From NCBI RefSeq assembly GCF_946463545.1, contig NZ_OX296583.1, positions 905,035 to 969,034 of the forward strand: 64,000 bases of DNA, read 5' to 3'. Both the position numbers and the translations under genes were made by a program. This document shows, in pieces, positions 2,327 through 58,269 of this stretch; the first letter of the stretch is position 1; every line of letters begins with the position of its first letter. Source of the stretch: Methanothermococcus thermolithotrophicus DSM 2095 (GTDB taxonomy: Archaea > AGJL01 > Methanococci > Methanococcales > Methanococcaceae). Below the pieces are notes generated by a model. It made no database searches, was not told the origin of the DNA, and was given only the letters and a program-made list of their open reading frames with translations.

Positions 2327-2669
2327 AAATCATCAGCTCCATATCCTAATCAGATCATAATATATAGTAAGATAATGTTAATAATATCATTGTTTTTTAA
2401 ATTATATTAATTTATCAAAACTATTTTATACTTAAATGAGATATCATATAAGCTAATCGTACCATATCTATATATATTGCATTTTAAATATTTTATAAAT
2501 TGAACAAACTTTGATTTTTGTCAATTTTATGGTTCTGAGTATGGTGGTGTGTATTATAAAACATACAATAATTAAATGAAATTTCCAATGATTACATTAT
2601 ATTATATGAAATTATGAAATTTATCAAGTATTCAGAAAATATATGGATTTAAGATATTATTTAGTTATT

Positions 2670-2713
2670 GGACAAAGTTGTCCGATCGAGCTCTGTAACT
2701 TTTTCGGTTACAG
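2670..2713. other. Twin hairpins in 457-base intergenic region
   Basis: The stretch 2327-2783 between two divergent genes is AT-rich without a gene. It holds GGACAA-AG-TTGTCC (2670-2683) and CTGTAAC-7-GTTACAG (2693-2713), with GAGCTC between them, then a TATA-like ctatatatta about 40 bases before the YhbY gene. The hairpins could be part of a leader, an operator or one more of the dispersed palindromes. No tRNA or known riboswitch fold was recognised. Confidence 0.4.
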
Positions 2714-2783
2714 CGGGTAATAGGAAATCGCACACTGCTATATATTATCTATTTTAGGACAATTAACAATTATGAGTGATATT

Positions 2784-10917: not shown

Positions 10918-11652
10918 GTGTTGGAAACTCTTATATTCTCATTTTCTTTCGTAATTTTAGCACTGATTGTAATATATAAAGAAGAACTGGGGTTTGGGAA
11001 GGAAGTTTTAATAGCTGAGATATTGGCATTAGTCCAGCTTATAATTCTAGGGTATGTCATCAACCTTATTTTTAGTTTGGGTATGATTTATGCTATGGCC
11101 ATGGTCCTTGCAATGATTGTAGTTGCTTCATTTATTGTTAAAAGAAATTTAAATATGGATAAATTAAATCGTGAAATAATTATTAGTTCATTCTTATCAA
11201 TACTAACAACAGCTACAATATCCCTAGTTATTCTGTTATTCTCAAAAACCATAGCACTTGAGCCCAGGTATATTATACCATTAATGGGCATGGTAGTGGG
11301 AAATTCAACAAATGTAATTTCTTTAAGTTTGGATAGGTTGTTGAATGATTTAAAATCAAATAAGGATGTTTTATGGGGATATTTGGCGCTGGGTGCTACG
11401 GAAAAACAGGCAGTACAACCGTTTATAAAAAAAGCAATAAGGTCGGCCCTCACCCCACAGTTAAATACAGCAAAAGCCGTTGGAGTTATATTTATTCCAG
11501 GTGCAATGGTAGGTATGCTTTTGAGTGGGATAGATCCATTATATGCTTCAAAAATTCAAATTACCATAATGTGGATGGTTATGAGCTCTGCAATAATATC
11601 TTCACTAATGGCGTGTTATCTAGTATCTAAAAGTTTTATCTATAAATTGTAG
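10918..11652 (+). CDS. UPF0014/FetB-family membrane permease
   Basis: 244 residues, strongly hydrophobic with about seven membrane segments. The central conserved block LEPRYIIPLMGMVVGNSTNVISLSLDRL and the later LGATEKQAVQPFIKKAIRSALTPQLN, then TAKAVGVIFIPGAMVGMLLSGIDP, match the UPF0014 family, which includes E. coli FetB, an ABC permease that exports iron with the ATPase FetA. No ATPase gene is adjacent, so the partner, if any, is elsewhere. The frame begins with GTG TTG after GGATGAT. The last codons (around 11634-11646) are echoed twice in the downstream spacer. Confidence 0.87.
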   Translation: MLETLIFSFSFVILALIVIYKEELGFGKEVLIAEILALVQLIILGYVINLIFSLGMIYAMAMVLAMIVVASFIVKRNLNMDKLNREIIISSFLSILTTATISLVILLFSKTIALEPRYIIPLMGMVVGNSTNVISLSLDRLLNDLKSNKDVLWGYLALGATEKQAVQPFIKKAIRSALTPQLNTAKAVGVIFIPGAMVGMLLSGIDPLYASKIQITIMWMVMSSAIISSLMACYLVSKSFIYKL

Positions 11653-11656
11653 CTAA

Positions 11657-11873
11657 TTTGGATCCAACATTTTTTAAAGGTTGGATGGGATGCTATTTAA
11701 TAGCCAAGTGTTTTATCTATAAACTGTAGGCTAATAAGATGAACTTCCTTCTGAGTTTATTACCGCGACCGACGTGTGATGATGTAAAGATTATCGTTAA
11801 CTTTGGATCCAACATTTTTTAAAGGTTGGATGGGATGCTATTTAATAGCCAAGTGTTTTATCTATAAACCGTA
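11657..11873. repeat. 72 bp direct repeat carrying a hairpin and an echo of the upstream gene end
   Basis: Copies at 11657-11728 and 11802-11873 match at 71 of 72 positions. Each has ATCCAACATTT-TTT-AAAGGTTGGAT (one mismatch in 11 bp arms), then GCTAT-TTA-ATAGC, then TTTTATCTATAAA. The last block also forms the final codons of the UPF0014 gene (11634-11646), so the unit seems to have arisen by copying the gene's 3' end with its terminator. The copies are separated by 73 bases containing GCGACCGACGTG, which resembles a motif upstream of aksA. No gene in this 334-base gap. Confidence 0.85.
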
Positions 11874-18828: not shown

Positions 18829-19215
18829 TTATTTTGTTACAATTTTAACAATATCGCCATTGCTTAAAGACAAGAATTTCCTTAATTTAATAGGGGCTAT
18901 AATTTCAAGTATGTTTGATGAATGGCAAGTTTTTTTAGGTGCCACTATGGCCCCATCTATAGTATGACCTTCTTTATTAATTATAGTTACTGGTATTACT
19001 TTAAGGCCATAAAATTTTTTGTTGTTGTAGTAAAAATCGCCAACTTCCAAAGGATTTAACTTGTCTAAATTTATAGTTTCATTTAATTTAATATTTAATG
19101 TTCCTTCATAAGGCTCAAAACCTAAAATTTCTTTAAATTTTTGTTTATACGGGGGCAGACTCATATAGTAACTGCCTTCACCTCTTCCTGGAACTAATCT
19201 ACCTAAAAATTTCAA
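18829..19215 (-). CDS. ribK: CTP-dependent riboflavin kinase
   Basis: 128 residues, matching the stand-alone archaeal RibK (DUF120): GRLVPGRGEGSYYMSL near the start, GFEPYEGTLNIKL, and TIDGAIVAPKKTCH. RibK phosphorylates riboflavin to FMN with CTP. In other archaea the domain is fused to a winged helix that represses rib genes; here the helix is absent, so any regulator is elsewhere. Start is TTG with GGTGG upstream. The operon ribK-ribB-ribC begins here, and a 14 bp arm TGCACACCACTATA (minus strand, 19254-19241) with a distant inverted partner lies 25 bases before the start. Confidence 0.93.
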   Translation of the reverse strand: MKFLGRLVPGRGEGSYYMSLPPYKQKFKEILGFEPYEGTLNIKLNETINLDKLNPLEVGDFYYNNKKFYGLKVIPVTIINKEGHTIDGAIVAPKKTCHSSNILEIIAPIKLRKFLSLSNGDIVKIVTK

Positions 19216-19240
19216 TATACCACCATATACTATGAAGATT

Positions 19241-19387
19241 TATAGTGGTGTGCATTACTTACATCTAATGAATGCAGATAATTTATTTAAACATGAATAT
19301 ACCTTGTTAAATTAAATTAAGCTTATTTACTGAAGTTATTTAATTTATAATGTATTAATAGTTCATTTAAAATTGCACACCACTATA
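19241..19387. repeat. Long-spaced inverted repeat at ribK promoter
   Basis: TATAGTGGTGTGCA (19241-19254) and TGCACACCACTATA (19374-19387) are perfect 14 bp inverted repeats 119 bases apart. The arm near ribK supplies the likely TATA element. Three other promoters in this window have pairs that also start TATAGT but carry different following bases. The 477-base gap 19216-19692 holds this pair, the next pair at 19539-19658, and otherwise AT-rich DNA. Confidence 0.8.
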
Positions 19388-19528
19388 TATAGTTTTACCG
19401 ATACCAATATATGGTTCATATGTTTAAGCACATATTGTAATGTTATTGGAAATTGAGTGTCACTTCGGAGCTCCCAAACTTAGATTTTTATTCAATGTAG
19501 TTCATGAAGTGTGAGTGGAAAATATATT

Positions 19529-19658
19529 GCAGAACAACTATAGTCATTCTGCAATTAGATTTCATTTAACATAACTCAAATTTAAATTAGATGTTTGTTA
19601 TCATACCTTAAATTCATTTGAAGAAATGGGTTATGAAACATATCGCAGAACGACTATA
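19529..19658. repeat. Long-spaced inverted repeat at MTA phosphorylase promoter
   Basis: TATAGTCATTCTGC (19539-19552) and GCAGAACGACTATA (19645-19658) are inverted repeats matching at 13 of 14 positions, 92 bases apart. The distal arm overlaps a local dyad, GCAGAACAACTATA (19529-19542) facing TATAGTCATTCTGC. The proximal arm runs into ACTATATATT, a fitting TATA element about 35 bases before the TTG start of the next gene. Confidence 0.75.
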
Positions 19659-19692
19659 TATTAACAATACTACCTAAAATTGGGTGATATGA

Positions 19693-20454
19693 TTGATAGG
19701 GATTATTGGAGGAACCGGTGTATCTTCTATCCTAAAAAAAGGGGAAGAGAAAATAGTGCATACTAAATACGGAAAATCAAAGGTTTTAATAGATAAAGAT
19801 AACGATGTTGTTTTACTGTTTAGGCATGGATTAAAGCATAACACCCCGCCCCATAAAATAAACTATAGGGCAAACATCTATACCTTGAAAAAGTTGGGTG
19901 TTGATAGAATCTTAGCTATAAATTCAGTAGGTTCATTAAGAAAAGAAATAAAACCCGGAACTTTTTTTATTCCTAACGATTTTTTAGAGTTTACAAAGAT
20001 GAGAGAGTGTACATTTTACGATGGTGATGATGGGAAGGTTGTGCATATCGATGTTTCAGAGCCCTACTGCCCTGAATTAACAAAAGTTTTAAAGGATATA
20101 TTTGAACGCAGGAAATATGAGTATCATGAAGGAGTTTATGTTTGTACCGAAGGGCCAAGATTCGAGACAAAAAAAGAGATAGAAATTTATGGAAATTGGG
20201 GACATATTGTTGGAATGACGGGATATCCTGAAGTAGTTCTGGCGAGAGAACTTGAAATGTGTTATGCCTCAGTATGTAATATTTCAAACCACTGTACCGG
20301 AATATCGCCTAATAAATTAACTGTAGATGAAGTTTTTGAAACTATAAAGGAAATGGAAGAAAAGATTTTGAAGGTTGTTGAAGAATTTGTGAATTATGAT
20401 TTTGGGGAAAGAACCTGCGCGTGTAAGGATGCCCTTAAGTGTGCAGTGATTTAA
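19693..20454 (+). CDS. MTA/MTI phosphorylase (MTAP-type purine nucleoside phosphorylase)
   Basis: 253 residues with GIIGGTGVSSIL, then FRHGLKHNTPPHKINYRANI (phosphate-binding histidine block), CTEGPRFETKKEIEI and VGMTGYPEVVLARELEMCYAS, the MTAP signatures. Enzymes of this type cleave 5'-methylthioadenosine or its deaminated form methylthioinosine to methylthioribose 1-phosphate. In Methanocaldococcus the homologue prefers methylthioinosine, following the deaminase DadD. The product is the substrate of MtnA, encoded at 55.5 kb. The start is TTG after GGGTGAT; an overlapping ATG is out of frame. The promoter carries a long-spaced inverted repeat. Confidence 0.9.
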   Translation: MIGIIGGTGVSSILKKGEEKIVHTKYGKSKVLIDKDNDVVLLFRHGLKHNTPPHKINYRANIYTLKKLGVDRILAINSVGSLRKEIKPGTFFIPNDFLEFTKMRECTFYDGDDGKVVHIDVSEPYCPELTKVLKDIFERRKYEYHEGVYVCTEGPRFETKKEIEIYGNWGHIVGMTGYPEVVLARELEMCYASVCNISNHCTGISPNKLTVDEVFETIKEMEEKILKVVEEFVNYDFGERTCACKDALKCAVI

Positions 20455-22610: not shown

Positions 22611-22722
22611 TATAGTGTTTTCATAATAAGATACACTTATCCGTAGTTAAATATGTAAAAAACTGAATATCCATAATTTAAAGTTATAGATGTTAATTAG
22701 TTGTTTTGTGAAAACACTATAA
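22611..22722. repeat. Long-spaced inverted repeat at dph2 promoter
   Basis: TATAGTGTTTTCA (22611-22623) and TGAAAACACTATA (22710-22722) are perfect 13 bp inverted repeats 86 bases apart in the 345-base gap between thiC and dph2. The proximal arm ends 37 bases before the dph2 ATG and looks like its TATA element. The rest of the gap contains GAAAATATTTTC near 22448 and AT-rich sequence. Confidence 0.8.
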
Positions 22723-36409: not shown

Positions 36410-36514
36410 CAAATCCTTCGGATTTGTCTCGACCTCGAGAAGCTATGAAATCGAAATCTATAATTTCGAGTTATAAAAATCTTGTATAGATTTTTATTCA
36501 AATCCGAAGGATTT
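36410..36514. repeat. Palindromic element cluster upstream of the GTPase gene
   Basis: CAAATCC-TTC-GGATTTG (36410-36426), AAAAATC-7-GATTTTT (36475-36495) and AAATCC-GAA-GGATTT (36500-36514) lie between two divergent genes. The sequence GATTTTTATTCAA in it recurs at 19.48 and 51.95 kb, and GTCGAAGCAAATC recurs near 39.47 kb, showing that this is one family. Transcription of the GTPase-sepF pair must start in or beside these elements. Confidence 0.75.
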
Positions 36515-42853: not shown

Positions 42854-42969
42854 TATAGTAGTTCGCGTTATAAGTTAATGAAAACTACAATTAAATTAAG
42901 GGAGAATAATTACTATTTGAAATTTCATAAAGGATTATCAATATTGCAAAAAATTCGCGAACAACTATA
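42854..42969. repeat. Long-spaced inverted repeat at thioredoxin promoter
   Basis: TATAGTAGTTCGCG (42854-42867) and CGCGAACAACTATA (42956-42969) are inverted repeats matching at 13 of 14 positions, 88 bases apart. The proximal arm ends 42 bases before the ATG and supplies a TATA-like element; the distal arm begins two bases after the DUF169 stop codon. Confidence 0.75.
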
Positions 42970-55272: not shown

Positions 55273-55544
55273 TCAATCACCTGAACCGACGTAAGAATAT
55301 TATCATATCTTATACCATAAAACTATAACTTAACCATATCATATCTAATTGGTGGTGTGCAGTTTTATTAAACATGTACATACATAAAATTAAACTAAAT
55401 ATTTTGTTTAATTAAAAATATGAACAATTAAAGTAAATTTCAGTTATTATCTATTATTTTATGTAATGCATACCAATATAAATACATCTTATAGTTATGA
55501 TGACATATCAATCAAGATTGGATTTATAGCTGGATGGTGAGTAT

Positions 55545-56700: not shown

Positions 56701-58017
56701 ATGTTTTTATTAGGCGATTGGAGAAGAACAAATTATTCAAATGAAGTAAAACCAGAAATGGATGGGGAAGAAGTTATATTGATGGGATGGGTTCACTCAA
56801 TAAGAGCATTAGGTAAGCTGGCATTCATAATTTTGAGGGATAGAGAAGGAACCATCCAAATAGTAGTTCCAAAACAAAAGGTATCTGAAGAAACATTCGC
56901 AACCGCAAAAAAAATAGGAAAAGAAGACGTTATTGCAGTAAAAGGTAAAGTCGTTGCAAATGAAAAGGCACCTAACGGATTTGAAGTTATACCTACTGAA
57001 ATCAGAATATTGAATAAGGCAGAAACACCACTTCCATTGGATCCATCTGAAAAAGTACCTGCAGATATTGATACAAGACTTGATAAAAGATTCTTAGATT
57101 TAAGAAGACCAAAAATACAGGCTTTATTCAGAATAAGGTCTGAAATGTTGAAATCAGTTAGAAACACATTCTACGAAGAAGGATTTATTGAAGTAAACAC
57201 TCCAAAATTGGTTGCAAGTGCAACAGAAGGGGGAACAGAACTATTCCCGATTTCATACTTTGAAAAAGAGGCATTTTTAGGTCAAAGTCCACAGCTCTAT
57301 AAACAGATGATGATGGCAAGTGGTTTTGACAAGGTATTTGAAATTGGACCAATATTCAGGGCAGAAGAACACAACACAAGAAGGCACTTAAACGAGGCAA
57401 TATCCATAGATACAGAAATGTCATTCTCAGATGATAGAGATGCTATGGATGTGCTTGAAAAAGTAGTTTATAACACATTTGTAGATATTTACGAAAACAG
57501 GGAAAAAGAAATTGAGTTATTGGGAATCGACTTCAAACTCCCTGAGAAAAAATTCGATAGAATAACCTACGATGAGGCTGTTGATATTGCAAACTCAAAA
57601 GGTGTAGAAATCGAATGGGGAGAAGACCTTTCAAGAGCTGCTGAAAAGGCTATTGGAGATGAAATGGGCGATTTGTACTTTATAACAGATTGGCCATCTA
57701 AAACCAGACCGTTCTATACATTACACGATGAGAAAAATCCTGAAATATGTAAGGCATTTGACCTAATGTACAAAGAGCTCGAGCTCTCATCAGGAGCTCA
57801 GAGGGTTCATAAATACGATCTACTTGTGGAAAACATAAAAAGCATGGGAATGAATCCTGAAGGATTTGGAACATACTTAGAAGCGTTTAAGTATGGAATG
57901 CCACCACATGCAGGCTGGGGATTAGGTGCAGATAGATTTATGATGATTCTGACCTGCCAAGAAAACATTAGGGAATGTGTATTATTCCCAAGAGACAGGC
58001 AGAGATTAACACCATAA
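56701..58017 (+). CDS. aspS: Aspartyl-tRNA synthetase, archaeal type
   Basis: 438 residues. An OB-fold anticodon domain ([29 protein letters not shown], given by position 22-50) precedes the class II catalytic core with motif 2 [17 protein letters not shown] and motif 3 [22 protein letters not shown] is also characteristic. The archaeal type lacks the bacterial GAD insert. It may be discriminating or may also charge tRNA-Asn; that cannot be told here. The last codons (CGC-like AGA TTA ACA CCA TAA) are the first bases of a tandem 84 bp repeat, so the 3' end and spacer have been duplicated. ATG after AGGTGAAATA. Confidence 0.95.
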
Positions 58018-58269
58018 CAACACTTTTAAAGGGTTTAAGAAGAAATATTATATTTTGGAATCCAAACCTTTTTTTAAAAGGTTTGGAGATTAACACCATA
58101 ACAACACTTTTAAAGGGTTTAAGAAGAAATATTATATTTTGGAATCCAAACCTTTTTTTAAAAGGTTTGGAGATTAACACCATAACAACACTTTTAAAGG
58201 GTTTAAGAAGAAATATTATATTTTGGAATCCAAACCTTTTTTTAAAAGGTTTGGAGATTAACACCATAA
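58002..58269. repeat. Three tandem 84 bp repeats starting in the 3' end of aspS
   Basis: The unit begins at GATTAACACCATAACA, which is the end of aspS, and contains ACACTTTTAAAGGG, an AT-rich stretch and the hairpin CCAAACCTTTT-TTT-AAAAGGTTTGG. Full copies start at about 58004, 58088 and 58172 with no differences that I can see, and a fourth partial copy ends at 58269 before unrelated sequence. Each 84-base unit is a multiple of three, which leaves long open frames on both strands (about 108 and 99 codons); I do not regard these as genes. The hairpin may be the aspS terminator. Confidence 0.92.

Follow-up and report, generated by a model that had tools for sequence, protein, structure and literature searches.

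The paired 14-bp arms upstream of ribK in Methanothermococcus thermolithotrophicus DSM 2095 are almost certainly the terminal inverted repeats (TIRs) of a protein-less miniature inverted-repeat transposable element (MITE) of ~147 bases, and it is highly probable, taking the reading as a whole, that this MITE is of the IS630/Tc1-mariner type. What looked like puzzling, covarying promoter repeats is thereby explained as ordinary mobile DNA.

A MITE in the ribK spacer

In the window, by which we mean the whole 64,000-nucleotide stretch analyzed, the arm TATAGTGGTGTGCA lies at 19241-19254 and its exact inverse at 19374-19387, a perfect 14-bp pair with an inner distance of 119 bases, as the sequence-only reading had reported, and an outer length of 147. 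That reading had judged such a match unlikely by chance. When perfect inverted repeats with arms of ≥14 bp and a reach of at most 260 bp are counted, the window has three, against 0 to 2 (mean, 0.3) in 20 dinucleotide shuffles. Its gene label was also correct: ribK, encoding a CTP-dependent riboflavin kinase (18829-19215, minus strand; PF01982, E=3e-33), has a TTG start, 25 bp upstream of which lies the near arm, and is followed on the minus strand by the gene for DHBP synthase. A phosphorylase superfamily protein of the methylthioadenosine/nucleoside phosphorylase type (PF01048) is encoded on the opposite side of the spacer (19693-20454, plus strand). The spacer had been given as 170 bases; it is in fact 477 bp long (19216-19692) and holds more than one element.

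The full copy at 19241-19387 (plus strand) is 147 bp long and A+T-rich, has no ORF (none of 80 amino acids was found inside it), and matches the model of its family, here called family A, with an E value of 1.4e-25. Its left-type end (TTACTTAC...) faces ribK and its right-type end (ATTTTAA...) is distal. It shows what is expected of a MITE, namely less than 200 bp of noncoding DNA, TIRs, and dispersed copies at unrelated sites, and also the TA at both termini expected of the IS630/Tc1-mariner type. From the IS630-type ends of its relatives, we presume TA target-site duplications at 19241-19242 on the ribK side and 19386-19387 on the distal side.

Distribution of family A

With at most one mismatch allowed, the 14-mer TATAGTGGTGTGCA marks 39 ends in the 1.706-Mb genome (G000), compared with 1 for the reversed pattern, and most of these matches form inward-facing pairs 108 to 310 bp apart. 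Left-type ends consist of the arm plus TTACTTACTTAACTAATAAATACAG and right-type ends of the arm plus ATTTTAARTNAACTAATNAATACATTA. By BLAST, the 147-bp element is ~71 to 85% identical to other loci across most of its length. A sequence-only model of 150 positions finds ~28 distinct loci, and the total comes to ~31 once decayed and short copies recognized by their arms are added, in a census based on searches plus chosen stretches of the genome. Most copies are 108 to 152 bp long. Between copies, pairwise identity is 95% in the left and 87% in the right TIR columns and 68% in the interior, and the flanking sequences at loci of family A, as at those of family B (below), are unrelated from site to site. 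The sequence-only reading had thus been right to suggest remnants of small elements, but not that their ends match only each other, as ~30 further copies genome-wide match these.

Two decayed copies lie elsewhere in the window. One, of 133 bp at 55348-55480 (minus strand), is matched by the model at G000:C1:960386-960514 with an E value of 2.8e-4; the other, of 203 bp at 2540-2742 (plus strand), is a weaker call that was missed by the 150-position model, with 2 and 3 mismatches in its arms and an interior that by eye resembles a 200-bp copy at G000:C1:151719-151918. Two family A derivatives of ~45 bp (L024 and L026, at G000:C1:1425216 and 1464191) have arms that nearly touch and are possible internal-deletion hairpins. 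The stretches between single arms at L022, L060, and L062, where a parent element was sought, contain ordinary genes only.

Three further elements in the window

Three more TATAGT pairs described by the sequence-only reading hold up, at 19539-19658, 22611-22721, and 42854-42969; in each, the two arms agree at 13 of 14 bases, and the inner spacings are ~85 to 92. The first, a 120-bp element with the TIR TATAGTC[A/G]TTCTGC, shares the ribK spacer, 151 bp away from the family A element and with its distal end 34 bp upstream of the phosphorylase gene; it belongs to family B, whose arms (TATAGTCGTTCTGC) have 48 matches versus 0 for the control pattern, with ~38 loci by model. The second (element C, 111 bp; arms, TATAGTGTTTTCA) is present in a single copy in this genome. 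The third (element D, 116 bp; arms, TATAGT[A/T]GTTCGCG) has a second copy at G000:C1:517004-517146 and a TIR like that of a MITE of the Methanococcaceae genus g4. The arms of families A and B have only TATAGT in common, and a TATAGT common to all with pair-specific 8-mers is thus what a set of MITE families, A, B, C, and D, presents.

Insertion junctions

No target duplication beyond TATA was seen. TATAGT would be the TA of the target duplication joined to the transposon terminus TAGT, with the next 8 bases specific to the family, and the lack of any duplication outside TATA is accounted for in this way. The presumed TA duplication rests on IS630 biology and on the logic of junctions between elements. 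In the ribK spacer, the B copy at 19539 interrupts a probable older B-type element at 19388-19542, placed partly by inference: it has a clear right arm (GCAGAACAACTATA, at 19529-19542) and a degraded left end, and its right half is 72% like G000:C1:750894-750983. The two B-type ends meet at 19529-19552 in the sequence GCAGAACAACTATAGTCATTCTGC, and CGACTATATATT is read at the other end of the B copy; the junction of CAACTA with TAGTCA...CGACTATATATT is consistent with insertion into a TA, and once the B element is taken out together with one TA, what is left is ...CAACTATATTAACAA, the expected end of the older element. At L003, an end of family B and one of family A have a TA in common (GACTATATAGTGG), and in G006, a genome from another genus of Methanococcaceae, a 178-bp element is nested in another at a TA. 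These abutting and nested junctions (window 19529-19660, L003, and L133) are consistent with TA insertion, short of proof.

Several MITE copies are also split by a far shorter repeat of another kind (L134, L136, L137, L139, and L142 in G006; L004, L008, L029, L061, and L067 in G000). These hairpins, for example GGCAAAACC...GGTTTTGCC bearing a GTATA tail on one side in G006 and TCGACGAAACCTTCGGTTTCGTCGA and AAAATCACGAAGTGATTTTT in G000, look like ~30-bp REP-like mobile palindromes whose exact insertion points are given by the MITE copies. Palindromes of the same hairpin kind (TCCAAACCTTTT/AAAAGGTTTGGA) occur at window positions 58002-58269 in an 84-bp perfect direct tandem repeat of ~3 copies. 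The window also holds a 92-bp direct repeat (11638-11728 and 11782-11873; 91% identical) and, at 36411-36514, a 16-bp perfect inverted repeat, AAATCCTTCGGATTTG, itself nearly palindromic, with an outer span of 104 bp.

Relatives and covariation of the arms

A search for exact family A ends across 84,980 genome species and viral contigs, from which this genome itself was possibly left out, returned a few scattered matches in unrelated bacteria and viral contigs, which we took as chance. Three exact 14-mers in genus g3 were dismissed in the same way; they have no partner arm and apparently lie inside genes. A DNA search of plasmids and phages gave no match. One decayed family A half is present in G007, and a related MITE occurs in G003 and especially in G006, where one G003 copy has more than 20 counterparts. 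Within the stretches of G006 that were analyzed, 14 arm-matched elements carry TATAGTTGTGTGCG (7 elements), TATAGTCGTGTGCG (5), TATAGTTGTTTGCG (1), or TATAGTTGTTTGCC (1), and the two sides are always alike: TIR position 7 is C/C in five and T/T in nine, with no mixed copy. Random pairing would give this pattern with a probability of 1 in 2002, a figure that is biased since the elements were chosen as arm-matched. The arms do therefore covary, as the sequence-only reading had proposed, and most strongly in this sister genus; the covariation may reflect coadaptation to transposase variants or homogenization of the arms.

Gene context and promoter function

To within a few bases, all 39 copies examined from families A, B, C, and D are intergenic, although the first gene call placed 37 bases of one family A copy (L019) inside a predicted ORF. 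Eighteen lie between divergent genes, 15 between codirectional genes, and 4 between convergent genes, and 2 have one neighbor uncalled, in contexts taken from a simple home-made codon-usage caller. Element ends fall 20 to 40 bp from a start codon in 8 of 52 cases, compared with 10.5% of TA sites in window spacers (p=0.17), a test that is approximate because the gene starts, and hence the start distances, come from that caller. The repeats had been described as promoter associated, but their sites occur in every gene orientation, convergent included, with no excess at 20 to 40 bp; the element class as a whole is untied to promoters.

The same data bear on the proposal that the pairs are divergent twin promoters, with a TATA box in each arm driving transcription outward both ways. 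TATA is present in the arms, 25 bp separate the near arm from the ribK start codon, and 18 of the 39 copies sit between divergent genes. Against this, four copies sit between convergent genes, ends are not enriched at promoter distance, and what is conserved extends beyond TATA to whole arms and homologous interiors; the copies do not have the arrangement of archaeal divergent promoters, with genes on both sides at a fixed TATA distance. Moreover, the genome-wide search for generic TATAGT...ACTATA pairs suggested by the sequence-only reading gave 17 and 28 pairs versus 21 and 26 in the reversed-pattern control, hence no enrichment; only the arm-matched families exceed the control. Twin promoters are thus very improbable. 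The ribK-near arm may by chance act as a TATA-like sequence, as a single case. It is also conceivable, if unlikely, that the outward TATA (ACTATA) of MITE ends supplies ready-made archaeal TATA boxes that reset flanking promoters such as that of ribK, while concerted evolution, through arm-to-arm conversion or coselection, keeps the two arms of each copy identical and has given rise to the arm-matched subtypes in Methanococcaceae.

Slimmer still are the chances of a regulatory cruciform or RNA hairpin under selection for arm pairing. The window copy does fold better than its shuffles (z = -3.7), and arms covary both between families and within G006, but such folding is expected of any element with TIRs, the arms measure at least 14 bp while the interiors differ, Rfam gave no match, and the copies are lineage specific and untied to particular genes. 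A cruciform, which had also been suggested, could form at any inverted repeat; the MITE explanation does without it.

Probable link to IS630 transposons

Insertion of IS630/Tc1-mariner elements takes place at a TA, which becomes duplicated, and a TA target together with a MITE habit is typical of IS630. Under the MITE explanation, an IS630-like transposase would have recognized the bases that follow TATAGT and are specific to each family, and would have moved the element, by excision or copying, into a TA that was thereby duplicated; the arms would change together because both ends must suit one transposase, and the family A copy near ribK would have landed 25 bp from the start codon. A Pfam profile search for DDE_3 (PF13358, IS630 family), the only DDE family covered, identified it in 2 of 36 Methanococcales genomes, G032 and G017, and gave no match in the present genome or in G006, even though G006 has some almost identical copies. 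As neither an IS630 transposase in the genome nor an empty site of a MITE copy was found, mobilization by such a transposase is something we infer, with considerable confidence. An IS630 transposase in the same genome is usual for an active MITE family but not required of a fossil one, and with the transposase gone the copies here would be fossils.

The archaeal IS630 elements themselves support the connection. That of G032 (C64) is bounded by TATAGTGTTTTTCAAAATGTTTTGGAAAA and the inverse of TATAGTTCTTTTCAAAATATTTTGGAAAA, with a 33-bp TIR beginning TATAGT; in G017, the blocks shared between copies start and end within a few bases of TATAGT and ACTATA, with the TIR TATAGTCAAGCACATAATT/TATAGTTAAGAACATAATT; and on the Methanohalobium plasmid pMETEV01, TATAGT and ACTATA lie just outside a gene with an IS630 annotation, whose product is the closest plasmid-encoded relative of the G032 transposase. 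All three thus have TATAGT...ACTATA at both ends, like the MITEs here, but are ~1.1 kb long with a DDE_3 transposase and differ from families A and B in the bases after TATAGT. Overlap with the A and B TIRs is limited to TATAGT, and a fuller likeness is seen only for element C, whose arms closely resemble the G032 TIR (TATAGTGTTTTTCAAAAT; also given as TATAGTGTTTTTCA). A search of relatives for the empty site of the G032 element gave matches to a single flank at a time.

Could another transposase, for example a TA-targeting one of the IS5/IS427 type, have moved the MITE and share the TATAGT terminus by chance? The absence of PF13358 from this genome, and from G006 despite its recent copies, would agree with this, as would the sharing of just TATAGT between the three IS630 elements and families A and B. 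We nevertheless consider it improbable, given TATAGT at both ends of three archaeal IS630 elements, the near match of the element C arms to the full G032 TIR, and the TA target and MITE habit typical of IS630. An autonomous element with exact A, B, or D arms plus a transposase was not found; the parent of the MITEs may be lost, lie on an unsampled plasmid, or belong to another transposase family.

Comparison with known systems

Methanococcaceae harbor what look like unlisted Tc1/mariner-type MITE families, and a TATA motif recurring upstream of archaeal genes should be viewed with caution, as it can be a transposon end. In length, TIRs, TA termini, A+T richness, intergenic sites, and hairpin folding, these elements agree with the published bacterial MITE class (Correia, RUP, and ERIC: <200 bp, TIR, TA termini, A+T-rich, intergenic; PMC2229807). 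Correia, or NEMIS (CREE), elements of Neisseria are ~100 to 155 bp, protein-less, mostly intergenic, and present in many copies with TA termini (PMC2229807). Their TIR starts TATAGTGG, published as TATAGTGGATTAACAAAAACCGG... (PMC5039591), and begins TATAGTGGATTAAC (PMC5039591, PMC9778887). Family A agrees with it in the first 8 bases (TATAGTGG) and then reads TGTGCA; this common start is apparently due to convergence or IS630 constraint. Family A lacks the ~26-bp TIR TATAGTGGATTAAC/AAATTT... of Correia elements, its interiors are unrelated to theirs, its host is archaeal, and the promoter, IHF, and RNase III features belong to Correia elements. Matching in 8 bases only, family A is thus Correia-like in its working, yet not Correia. 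RUP of Streptococcus pneumoniae (107 bp, intergenic, with a short TIR and a TA target) has been proposed to be mobilized in trans by IS630-Spn1 (PMC2229807), a partner in the same species, whereas no exact-TIR partner was found for the elements here. A survey of archaeal MITEs (Sulfolobus and others) listed 39 to 44 kinds in 30 archaeal genomes and does not mention Methanococcus or Methanothermococcus species in its main text (PMC3852290). Archaeal MITEs are in general nonautonomous TIR elements derived from insertion sequences, as here, and the ribK repeat is a fresh example of this known type of genomic parasite, not a special promoter.
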